Assembly (NCBI GenBank): GCA_021790455.1
Contig: JAJYDY010000002.1
Coordinates: forward strand, 1 to 47,930
Length of the DNA stretch: 47,930 nt
Direction of reading: 5' to 3'
Source: Microcaldota archaeon
GTDB lineage: Archaea > Micrarchaeota > Micrarchaeia > Micrarchaeales > Micrarchaeaceae
Under the pieces are notes generated by a model that was not told the DNA's origin, did not search any database, and saw only the letters and a program-made list of their open reading frames with translations. Every line of letters begins with the position of its first letter. The stretch's first letter is position 1. Positions 8,541-13,160 of this stretch are shown piece by piece. Made by a program: the position numbers and the translations under genes.

Positions 8541-9527
8541 TTATACGGAAACTGCGATTATATAGACTCCGAGTGCCATGATTATGCCGAAGGCCAGTGC
8601 GGGAATCGCCGGGAGGAGCCTCCTGAACTTCTCCAGTATGTAGAAGTTGAGCAGCAGCCCGAAGACGGCACCGGTTGCGACGACCAAGCACGGAATGAAG
8701 CTCTCGCCGACCTGGTACGCGGCGACAGAAACTATGAGAGGTATTGCGAGATCGCCGTTGCCAAGCGCTCTCTGCCCTATGAGAGGCACCCTTTTCTCCT
8801 TCTCGAGTTCCTTTAGCAGTGGCTTGTGGTTTGCGAAGGCTGCCCTCTGCTTAGAGACGAGCTCCCTTTCATGGGGCTTCAGGCTCTCCTTCGGCACAGC
8901 CTCAACGTCAGTTACGCCGACAAGCAGTGCAAGGTTCATGCTCATAGCCGCATTCGCCATCGCTACCATATGCTTTGTGATGAACACAGCTATGAAGTCA
9001 TATGCGGCAAATATCAGGAGGAAGACCAGCGATGCGACAAAGCTTATCTGCAGACCTACGATCAGCCCGATCCCTACGCTGGCGATTATCGATGCGAAGT
9101 TCCTCATGCGCGGGATCTTCCACTTCGCAGCGATTATCAGGAACGCAATGACTGCCGAGGCGACGAACACAGACAGGATCGTGGTGTTCGGGAAGTAGAG
9201 AAAGAGCAGGCTCACCACAGCCTGCGCGGACTGACCTGCCAGCGCGCCGATCGCAATTATGAGAGTGAAGAAAGATCCGGCGAATATCGCTATCGCCTCC
9301 ATGAGCAGGAAGAAGAGCCTGCTCGATTTGGTCCTCATTATTATTATGATTATGAGCGCGAATAGCACAATCGCAAACGCATAGAATAGTACGAAGCTTG
9401 AAGGGGCAACCACCTGGTAGATCTGTATGATGAACGATGGCTGGTTGTTGTACACCTGCGTTGCAAGGAGCAGGCCTAGAAACTGGACTATCAGGAAGAT
9501 GACGAGTATCTTGATGTCCTGCCTCAT
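8541..9527 (-). CDS. Presenilin/signal-peptide-peptidase-like A22 intramembrane aspartyl protease
   Basis: Polytopic membrane protein with YD (AAYDFIAVF), GxGD (ALGNGDLAIPL) and PAL (AIPALAFG) motifs. Confidence 0.9.
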   Translation of the reverse strand: MRQDIKILVIFLIVQFLGLLLATQVYNNQPSFIIQIYQVVAPSSFVLFYAFAIVLFALIIIIIMRTKSSRLFFLLMEAIAIFAGSFFTLIIAIGALAGQSAQAVVSLLFLYFPNTTILSVFVASAVIAFLIIAAKWKIPRMRNFASIIASVGIGLIVGLQISFVASLVFLLIFAAYDFIAVFITKHMVAMANAAMSMNLALLVGVTDVEAVPKESLKPHERELVSKQRAAFANHKPLLKELEKEKRVPLIGQRALGNGDLAIPLIVSVAAYQVGESFIPCLVVATGAVFGLLLNFYILEKFRRLLPAIPALAFGIIMALGVYIIAVSV

Positions 9528-9605
9528 CGTGAGCGGTCTTACATCCAGAGAAACACCAATTAGATAAAAGTGCAGAAACTATTTATAGTGTGGGTTTGCC
9601 TCTGG

Positions 9606-12359
9606 TCAGATTGACCAGTATTTCTTGTTCTTTATGAAGGTCTTCTGCGCCTCTATCAGGTCTGTGAAGAAGAGGTGCTCCTGCCGCCTCAGCATCATGA
9701 GTATCCTGGCTGCGCTGGTCGGACCAACTCCATAAGTGGAAAGCGCGAGCGCTGCCCTTCCTCCATACGAGTCGAAAAGGCTAGCCTGCTTCATTATCTC
9801 CCTGAACTCCTTCCGCTCCGCCGCTGTGAGCCTCCTCCCTTCTAACCTCTTCTTTATTACTGTGTTGTACTCTTCGCTGAACGGCGCTATCATCGGACTG
9901 GCACAGTTGGGGCACTTTATCTCCTTCTCGTCTTTTATCTCGTTGAGCTTTCGCGAGAAGTGCATACCGCAATAGGTGCAGAGCAGCTTGATGTTCTTTG
10001 AAAGCAGGTACTTTGAGAAAGATGCGATGAGCTCGTTGCTCGGCAGCAGGGGCATCACCAGCTCCTTCGTGTAGTAGGCTGAGTTGAGTATCATCTTTGC
10101 GATCGGCGACAGCATCCCCGCCGCTACCGTCATGATCTTCATCCTTCCGCCGCTAATCGCACCAAAGAACTCGGAGAGCGTCGCAGTATCGAAGTAGTTC
10201 TGCATCAGTTCCCTTGACGTCTCTGCGTATACGGGGCTGTCCTGCAGAACCTTCATTACCTTCCTGGTTATTGACTTCGATACTGGAGTCTCCTTGTCTA
10301 TGATACCAAATAGCTTTGCAATCGTTATGAACTTGTACCTGAACAACTCCGTCTCCTGCATTGTATTCGCGAGCATCTTTTCAACGTCGTGCTCCGCTGT
10401 CTCCCTGAGGACAGGCTCGATCCTGATGCTCGAGGGCAGCTCGAAGAATATCATGTATGGGGACGACTTCATGTTAACGCTCCTTCCCGCCTTCGCGGTC
10501 AGCCTGAATGCAAGAAGCCGCGACAGCGCCTCGTTCGCGAGCGTGCCAAGCCCTGTGTGCAGGATAACGTACTCATCGCCCTGTTCTATAATTAGCTTGT
10601 CCGCGCTCGGAAGGCCAATCTTCGCCTGCGCCGCTATGAACTCATTTATCTCCTCCTTTGTCTTCTGGTCAGCTTTCGAAACGATTTCCGGATTGCCGAA
10701 TATCTCGAATACCTTCTCCGTTACCTTCCTGCTGACCGGGATGTCCTCCCCGTTCCAGTCGGGTATTGCGGCATCTAGGTCAGAGCTAGGCTCAACTGTT
10801 ATGACATTCTCGTCTATGCTGATGACTTTCCACGGAAGCCCCTTCGTTATGAAGACGGAGTTCTCGTCGACTGCGCTGACAACGAACCCCTCGTCAAGGC
10901 TGGATATTATCCTGTTGTCCGCAACGTTCTTAACTAGGAAGCGCTTTGAATCAGGGATAACGCTGAGGTGCTCATAATAGTACATCCTTGTCCTTGGCCC
11001 GGAGGATATGCTCCTGCCGTCGAAACCGACCATCCTGTGCTTGTTCATGAATTCGAGGAGCCATGACAGCTTCTCCCTTGGAAAGTCTTTGTAGATATAT
11101 GAGCGCTTTATTATCGAATCCAACTGATCTATGCTGCACTCGTTCTTGTCGATGGCGATCCCGCATATCTGGTTTGCAAGGACGTCGAGCGCATTGCTCT
11201 GCGGCTTATATCTCTCCAGCGTGCCGGCGGCGACATTGTCGAATATTGCAGTAGTCTCTATTGCATCCATTGTATTGGTGGCAAGTACGATGCCCTTCGC
11301 GGCTCCTTTCTCCGTATGCCCGCTCCTCCCCACTCTCTGAATCAGCCGAAGAGCCTGGCGCGGAGAGCCGTACTGTATTACGAGATCTACGTTGCCTATG
11401 TCTATGCCGAGCTCGAGAGAGCTCGTCGCGATTATGCTCTTCAGGGTGCCATCCTTGAACTCGTTCTCGATCTTTATCCTCTCCATCCTGTCGAGGGAGC
11501 TGTGGTGTACGCCTATTCCCCCGAACGGCTCGATGCTGTTGAGATAGAGGAGCCTGCTCCCCAGCGCCTCTACAACCTGCCGCGTGTTCGCGAATATTAT
11601 CGTCGACTTCGAATCCCTGACATTGGTCGCAATCGCGTTGAGCCTTCCGAGCGCATCGCCGTCAAGGCCGAACCTGTTCGCAAGATCAGCTAGGTGCTTC
11701 GCATGCGTCCTTGGGAGCTCCACCTTTAGCGACATCTCCTTCTTGTGCTGCACCTGCGCTGCCCTGCACTGCCTGTCATTGCAGAGGTACTTGCCGATCT
11801 GCTCCGGATCTCCGATAGTGGCGCTTATCCCTATTCTCTGGAAGCCGGGGGACAATTCCTCCAGCCTTTCGAGAGCGACAGAAAGCTGCGCTCCCCTCTT
11901 GTTGAAGTAGAGCTCGTGTATCTCGTCGATAACTACAGCCTTCACGTTCTTCAATGAGGGGCCTATGCTCTTAGTTGGCAGCACGCTCTGGAGAGTCTCT
12001 GGGGTTGTGATAAGCACCTGCGGTGCGCGCCTGGCCTGCTTCCCCCTTTCGCTCTGCGTCGTGTCGCCGTGCCTGACCGCGATCGTGATTCCGATCTCTG
12101 CGCACATCCGCTCCAGCCTTTTAATCATGTCCCTGTTGAGCGCTCGGAGCGGGGTGATGTAGAGCAGCTTTATCCCCGACTTGTCTTGGTCTTTCGCAAT
12201 CCTGTCGAATATCGGGAGGACTGCCGCTTCGGTCTTCCCGGATCCTGTAGGCGCTATGATTATGCAGTTCTCGCGCTTCTCCACTATCGGCAGCGCTAGC
12301 TTCTGTATGTCGGTGTATGTTTTGTATCTTTTGAGGAATATATCTTGGATGCTGGTTAT
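9606..12359 (-). CDS. Lhr-type DEAD/DEAH-box helicase, probable AUA start
   Basis: Motifs APTGSGKT, DEIH, SATIGDP, QRVGRSGH; C-terminal zinc motif. The track start (GTG 12284) cuts off Q-motif sequence FLKRYKTYTDIQKLALPIVEKREN, which is open upstream to the stop at 12375-12377; AUA at 12357-12359 follows GTGAT by 3 nt. Confidence 0.92.
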   Translation of the reverse strand: MTSIQDIFLKRYKTYTDIQKLALPIVEKRENCIIIAPTGSGKTEAAVLPIFDRIAKDQDKSGIKLLYITPLRALNRDMIKRLERMCAEIGITIAVRHGDTTQSERGKQARRAPQVLITTPETLQSVLPTKSIGPSLKNVKAVVIDEIHELYFNKRGAQLSVALERLEELSPGFQRIGISATIGDPEQIGKYLCNDRQCRAAQVQHKKEMSLKVELPRTHAKHLADLANRFGLDGDALGRLNAIATNVRDSKSTIIFANTRQVVEALGSRLLYLNSIEPFGGIGVHHSSLDRMERIKIENEFKDGTLKSIIATSSLELGIDIGNVDLVIQYGSPRQALRLIQRVGRSGHTEKGAAKGIVLATNTMDAIETTAIFDNVAAGTLERYKPQSNALDVLANQICGIAIDKNECSIDQLDSIIKRSYIYKDFPREKLSWLLEFMNKHRMVGFDGRSISSGPRTRMYYYEHLSVIPDSKRFLVKNVADNRIISSLDEGFVVSAVDENSVFITKGLPWKVISIDENVITVEPSSDLDAAIPDWNGEDIPVSRKVTEKVFEIFGNPEIVSKADQKTKEEINEFIAAQAKIGLPSADKLIIEQGDEYVILHTGLGTLANEALSRLLAFRLTAKAGRSVNMKSSPYMIFFELPSSIRIEPVLRETAEHDVEKMLANTMQETELFRYKFITIAKLFGIIDKETPVSKSITRKVMKVLQDSPVYAETSRELMQNYFDTATLSEFFGAISGGRMKIMTVAAGMLSPIAKMILNSAYYTKELVMPLLPSNELIASFSKYLLSKNIKLLCTYCGMHFSRKLNEIKDEKEIKCPNCASPMIAPFSEEYNTVIKKRLEGRRLTAAERKEFREIMKQASLFDSYGGRAALALSTYGVGPTSAARILMMLRRQEHLFFTDLIEAQKTFIKNKKYWSI

Positions 12360-12374
12360 GCAATCACTTGTGGC

Positions 12375-13160
12375 TTATATCTTAACATAATCCATGCCGA
12401 GTTCGTCAAGCTTCTTCATCGCAGCCTCGCGCTCCGGTGCGGTTATGCTCTTCCAGTCGATGACAGCGACCTCCGGCCTGGGCAGCGACCTCTCTATCGC
12501 CTGCTGCAGCATGTCGACGCTCCCCGTATGGTGCTTCGACATCATATGCCCGAATGCATACTCCCCATCGAGCGCCCTCTTTGCGAACCTGTCCTCGTAA
12601 TGGAGGCCGCCTATCCCGAGCGCAATCCTCTTGTAAGAAGCCTCTCTGTCGAGGGATTCGAACACCGATTCGGCAAGGAAGCGCGCCGCCTCTTTGCTGG
12701 TCTTGGTCTGCTCGTCACCGCCTATCTCAGCATAGAACGCTGGTGTCATGAGCAGCGGCCCGTGATGGGTCGCCTCATATGTGACTGGTATCTGCATCTT
12801 GTTCCTGCCCTTCATTGCAGCCAGGCAGTTCAGCATTCCGATCGGCGCTGCAGTCGCAAGCTGCTTCGGCTTCCCTCCCAGCTTCGCCTCGCCGTTCCAG
12901 TTGCCCATAGGATGCACCGTAAAGGAGGGCTGCCCCTTCGAGCTGCTGTGCCTGCTCAATATTATTATCAGGTCTGTATGTAGCTCATCCAGGAAATCCG
13001 CCTGGAGATGGGTCTCCTCCAACTCCAGAAGGCTTGCCTTCTCGCACCTGAAGTGCCTCATTCCTTTGAACTGGCTCTCCTCTTCAAAGCCGACAGCCTC
13101 CTTCAGGGCGGCTGCTATTGCCGTCGAGACTGGATCAGCTAGAGAATAGACGATGTACAT
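12375..13160 (-). CDS. dtdA: D-aminoacyl-tRNA deacylase (archaeal DTD2/GEK1 type)
   Basis: HPMGNWNGEAKLGGKPKQLATAAP, YEATHHGP, GIGGLHYEDRF motifs; GTGAA-CGC-ATG start context. Confidence 0.93.
   Translation of the reverse strand: MYIVYSLADPVSTAIAAALKEAVGFEEESQFKGMRHFRCEKASLLELEETHLQADFLDELHTDLIIILSRHSSSKGQPSFTVHPMGNWNGEAKLGGKPKQLATAAPIGMLNCLAAMKGRNKMQIPVTYEATHHGPLLMTPAFYAEIGGDEQTKTSKEAARFLAESVFESLDREASYKRIALGIGGLHYEDRFAKRALDGEYAFGHMMSKHHTGSVDMLQQAIERSLPRPEVAVIDWKSITAPEREAAMKKLDELGMDYVKI

Follow-up and report, generated by a model that had tools for sequence, protein, structure and literature searches.

Non-canonical start codons have been described in bacteria, where infC (encoding IF3) starts on AUU or AUA and pcnB on AUU. 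In Staphylococcus aureus, infC and ccpN start on AUA and cvfC1 on AUU, and the Shine-Dalgarno (SD) sequences of infC and ccpN are extended. Starts of the infC, pcnB and ccpN type attenuate translation (PMC13009471). For archaea, the only start codons named in the passages found in a review of initiation are AUG, GUG and UUG (PMC7531240), and in Sulfolobus the discrimination against non-canonical codons has been attributed to aIF1 (PMC6237735). The literature that we searched, with most subscription papers outside it, contained no AUA, ACG or near-cognate start in archaea or Micrarchaeota. The gene considered here, a micrarchaeal lhr, probably starts on AUA.

The window, 47,930 nt in length, belongs as contig C4 to a Micrarchaeota MAG of 782 kb and 84% completeness (G000; G-numbers designate genomes and L-numbers sampled stretches or loci). 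All features located in it below lie on the reverse strand. The lhr frame (12374..9606) opens directly after the TAA stop (12375..12377) of dtdA, which encodes the D-aminoacyl-tRNA deacylase DTD2 (PF04414, 1.2e-57) and is here in the same frame. An earlier note had reported no ATG, GTG or TTG in the 90 nt between this stop and a GTG at 12284-12282, and inspection of the frame confirmed it: 30 codons without a canonical start follow the stop, and the GTG is preceded by codons for ATSDCITSIQDIFLKRYKTYTDIQKLALPI. The same note had placed an AUA (12357..12359) 3 nt behind AGTGAT, and indeed only TGC separates this codon from the SD element at 12363..12368. From the AUA, the frame encodes 917 residues of an Lhr-type DEAD/H helicase plus the stop codon (9606..12359), with Pfam matches to DEAD (PF00270, 7.2e-38), Helicase_C (PF00271, 2.6e-21), WH_Lhr (PF19306, 1.5e-12) and the DEAD/H-associated domain (PF08494, 4e-29).

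The context of start codons was analysed in 276 kb of the 782 kb of G000 together with stretches of six congeners, and later in G006, G020 and G039 (400 kb per genome). The gene set came from an ORF/codon-usage caller, and the related sequences are not independent. Since only sampled stretches, one third of the genome, were used, start-codon frequencies are estimates. An SD profile learned by EM from ATG, GTG and TTG starts only contains one sharp element, GGTGAT at -9..-4, that is, 3 nt ahead of the start codon; a simple count of SD words with no fixed spacing gave no clear signal, so that the EM profile was needed. The AGTGAT of lhr differs from this consensus by one base and stands at the genome's own optimum spacing. 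With a score of 3.7, the lhr ATA ranks first among 576 in-frame near-start ATAs in about 700 kb. The consensus pairs with the 16S tail GATCACCTC found in G020, G039 and Micrarchaeum harzensis A_DKE. In L280-L283 the tail of the 16S gene is GGATAGATCACCTC, with A/G-rich sequence after it and the usual CCTCCT end absent, and G020 has a second 16S fragment besides its 16S gene. We rejected the idea that AUA serves generally as a start codon in this genome: the excess of SD-led ATAs near starts is modest over all genes (genus set, 19 seen and 9.8 expected; G020, 13 and 4.2), and most of the other high-scoring ATAs adjoin an ATG.

Orthologues of lhr were found in nearly all of 60 relatives (54% identity in M. 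harzensis A_DKE), and the SD-backed ATG starts of two of them map exactly onto the ATA at 12359. At this column many relatives have ATG or TTG, while ATA occurs in G000, G009, G027, G032 and G015, ATT in G005, G003 and G030, ATC in G008 and ACG in G007. These non-canonical codons are typically preceded by an SD 3-4 nt upstream, and in five genomes (G000, G007, G027, G032, G015) there is no ATG, GTG or TTG near the start. In G009, G005 and G003 a GTG, in principle a possible start, lies three codons upstream, within the SD. The start is non-canonical, with a variable codon, in about one third of family f1, the remainder having ATG or TTG; the sister family f2 adds two more possible cases, ATT in G059 and CTG in G049. 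The AUA start proposed in the earlier note, SD-spaced and located at the orthologous start column, is thus the best reading. We estimate a probability of roughly 0.84 that translation of lhr begins at this AUA, and that an SD at a fixed 3-nt spacing allows the ordinary initiator Met-tRNA(CAU) to start on near-cognate codons.

A second gene of the window, metG (methionyl-tRNA synthetase; PF09334, 3e-131), has a perfect SD GGTGAT (43036..43041) ahead of a putative AUA start (43030..43032; SD score 5.1). This ATA is the first codon after a TGA, in the context GGTGATTGA followed by ATA. The metG orthologues start on TTG or ATG, with ATA in G030 and ACG in G029 and G017; the SD-spaced codon is apparently GTA in G037 and TTC in G010 and G028. 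The two genes bear on the alternative that survives best, itself improbable, by which an assembly indel or a recent mutation, namely a 1-nt deletion, has put an in-frame GTG (GTGATT..) out of frame, lhr being then an artefact or a decaying gene. In G009 the sequence is in frame, GTG ATT TGT ATA at lhr and GTG ATT GGA ATA at metG, and between SD and ATA the window is 1 nt shorter than G009 in both genes. However, lhr and metG show the same 3-nt optimum spacing, the in-frame GTGs share bases with the SD and are themselves poorly scored for an SD, and the lhr frame is otherwise intact across its 917 codons. Moreover, an assembly error is unlikely because ATA, ATT, ATC and ACG occupy the lhr column in several independent assemblies. 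This also disfavours the indel considered in the earlier note, which would restore the frame of an upstream ATG.

Initiation at the GTG (12282..12284), giving an Lhr that lacks the Q-motif stretch, is still less probable. It is the first canonical in-frame codon, and a gene finder restricted to ATG, GTG and TTG would select it. We rejected it as the start, however: its SD score is -2.5, its Val is Ile in the 91%-identical orthologue of G009, and Lhr orthologues conserve the 25 residues ahead of it. The predicted stretch ahead of the GTG includes ITSIQDIFLKRYKTYTDIQK, and the Q-motif-like YTDIQ upstream of it is kept in the orthologues seen, in support of the earlier remark that a GTG start costs the protein its Q-motif. 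Because standard gene finders allow only ATG, GTG and TTG, such N-termini would be cut off in the annotation. Production of Lhr as a DTD2-Lhr readthrough fusion over the TAA at 12375, also raised in the earlier note, or by frameshifting from the ATG at 12388, would suit the adjacency of dtdA and lhr in one frame in the window, but it is very unlikely because dtdA and lhr do not share a frame in several relatives (for example L010, L012, L015), other genes precede lhr elsewhere, and the 10-codon ORF of that ATG is missing in G009. For this out-of-frame ATG, which is unusable and unconserved, the peptide previously given (MLRYKPQVIA, then a stop) was right and the position, 12387, one base off; it lies at 12388-12386.

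Beyond these genes, we mapped the SD-backed starts of orthologues onto all sampled genes. In 26 genes no ATG, GTG or TTG lies close to the mapped position, and in seven of these the SD score reaches 2.9 or more exactly at the mapped column, with about 0.1 expected; 0.3% of internal codons reach this score (P ~1e-11, with no correction for two genes that are each counted twice). Near-cognates make up six of the seven codons, compared with 21% near-cognate usage inside genes. The seven are the lhr ATA of the window and the lhr ACG of G007, the metG ATA of the window, the CTG of a presenilin/SPP-type protease in both the window and G009, the ACG of a G039 protein read as ribosomal protein uS4, and the GCG of an AlaX-like ORF of G003. 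In the window the protease gene (PF06550, 2e-13) has an SD-like GGTGTT at 9552..9557 and the proposed CTG at 9546..9548; five orthologues carry TTG at this column, and the ATG at 9527 is ATA in G009. Its start thus seems to be CTG 9548 and not ATG 9527. Where the SD score at a mapped column is 1.9 or higher, the codons comprise 197 ATG, 34 TTG, 13 GTG, 13 near-cognates and 15 others, nearly all of these 15 beside an ATG, GTG or TTG. From these counts, a few per cent of the SD-led starts in these genomes would be near-cognate. A few cases (GCG, GTA, TTC) fall outside the near-cognates, so that either the rules for the codon are not yet settled or part of the cases arise in another way.

Other ORFs deserve mention. 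GCG-ACA occupies the SD-spaced position in an RNase HI-like ORF of G000 (contig C28; L104, about 12026, reverse strand) and in the AlaX-like ORF (G003, contig C11). The two ORFs are unrelated and without a well-placed canonical start, and initiation on GCG would be stranger than on near-cognates. An ORF that looks CYTH-like by eye, with no Pfam hit (L098:9048-9740; G000, contig C9), has no canonical start and an SD-spaced ATC with a score of 4.0-4.2.

The clearest case concerns the TATA-binding protein (TBP). The TBP gene of G000 begins with ATCGGTGATTGA followed by ACG GCG AAA AAG. About 26 of the 33 TBP genes of f1 have an SD-spaced ACG and one has ATA; the SD is GGTGAT, GGTGGT or GGTGTT plus 3 nt, and most of these genes are devoid of canonical codons from -12 to +14. 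The cultured M. harzensis A_DKE, placed in f1 by similarity, has TGCGGTGGTTCA followed by ACG in its complete genome (NZ_CP060530.1:155962). Its first canonical codon falls inside the TBP repeat, and the predicted sequence upstream includes SDTKPAGTQTGSLESPK; in the G009 frame the first canonical codon comes only after part of the sole repeat. Because f2 and the other families of the class use ATG, GTG or TTG, the ACG would be a derived trait kept in f1. As in infC-type attenuation, a weak start codon is conserved across species, here behind a strong SD. Drift is hard to invoke for such conservation, which therefore suggests that the ACG has been kept family-wide by selection for attenuated or regulated initiation. 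In these genomes TBP is half-size, with one TBP repeat in 105-140 aa and usually two paralogous genes per genome (in G000, L106:3301-3705 on contig C22, and C16:32557-32841); a normal two-repeat ORF of about 195-218 aa occurs in part of the other families of the class. The half-TBPs possibly form a heterodimer.

Could normal AUG pairing be restored at these codons? All initiator-type tRNAs found, in 32 genomes, carry CAU, and none with another anticodon was found among them; that of G000 itself was not found among its sequences, which may reflect incompleteness. We rejected a changed initiator tRNA as the cause on these grounds. ACG is conserved in TBP, and ACG-to-AUG editing is known in plastids, but a special initiator tRNA or C-to-U editing is a most improbable explanation, given the uniform CAU and the fact that editing of C could not explain AUA, AUU or AUC. 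Isoleucine AUA codons are read by a tRNA-Ile with a UAU anticodon, present in G000. Several G000 tRNA genes with introns are missed by ARAGORN at default settings (L059, L062, L064, L068-L070, L076). Loss of aIF1 was rejected too: aIF1 is present in 58 of 60 genomes. Its SUI1 scores are somewhat lower in f1, and the f1 proteins inspected appear unremarkable.

Since the initiator tRNA is ordinary and aIF1 is present, SD-positioned initiation on a mismatched codon is the likeliest explanation. The 16S tail would pair with a GGTGAT that precedes the start codon by exactly 3 nt, a duplex that would fix the initiation site so tightly that one codon-anticodon mismatch is tolerated. The ordinary Met-tRNA(CAU) could then start on AUA, AUU, AUC, ACG and CUG, with methionine presumably inserted at a lower efficiency. 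In some genes, such as lhr, the start codon would drift, and in TBP the ACG would be retained across the whole family. We infer from sequence the initiation itself, methionine as the first residue, the reduced efficiency and the regulatory role. More tentatively, and with the odds somewhat against it, we propose that f1 fixed the TBP ACG as a translational governor, by which the supply of TBP would depend on start-codon stringency (aIF1/aIF2 activity) as an archaeal counterpart of infC; lhr, metG and others would share the relaxed, SD-dictated near-cognate initiation.

Non-canonical starts appear to be a lineage-wide phenomenon of Micrarchaeota, TBP included. If translated as proposed, these genes would represent the first regular AUA, ACG and CUG initiation in archaea, as far as the literature searched shows. 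With an ACG so deeply conserved in a general transcription factor, gene regulation by start-codon stringency would become testable in archaea. A cultured member, M. harzensis, exists, and for its strain A_DKE there is a transcriptome (PMC8975820). The Lhr of the window shares all four domains of its helicase family, and only its start codon is unusual. Compared with archaeal initiation as described in the passages found in the review (PMC7531240), the micrarchaeal genes are likewise SD-led and served by an archaeal-type initiator tRNA, but would start on AUA, AUU, AUC, ACG and CUG, where those passages name AUG, GUG and UUG. With the infC and ccpN type they would share a non-canonical codon, conserved in TBP, behind a strong SD and a proposed attenuation. 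The infC and ccpN starts are bacterial, IF3-discriminated and experimentally shown, whereas the micrarchaeal ones are archaeal and predicted from sequence, belong to genes for TBP, Lhr, MetRS and an SPP protease, and would also use ACG and CUG. SD-directed non-canonical starts are thus already known in bacteria; what would be new is their presence in an archaeal lineage, in several genes, with ACG in a general transcription factor.
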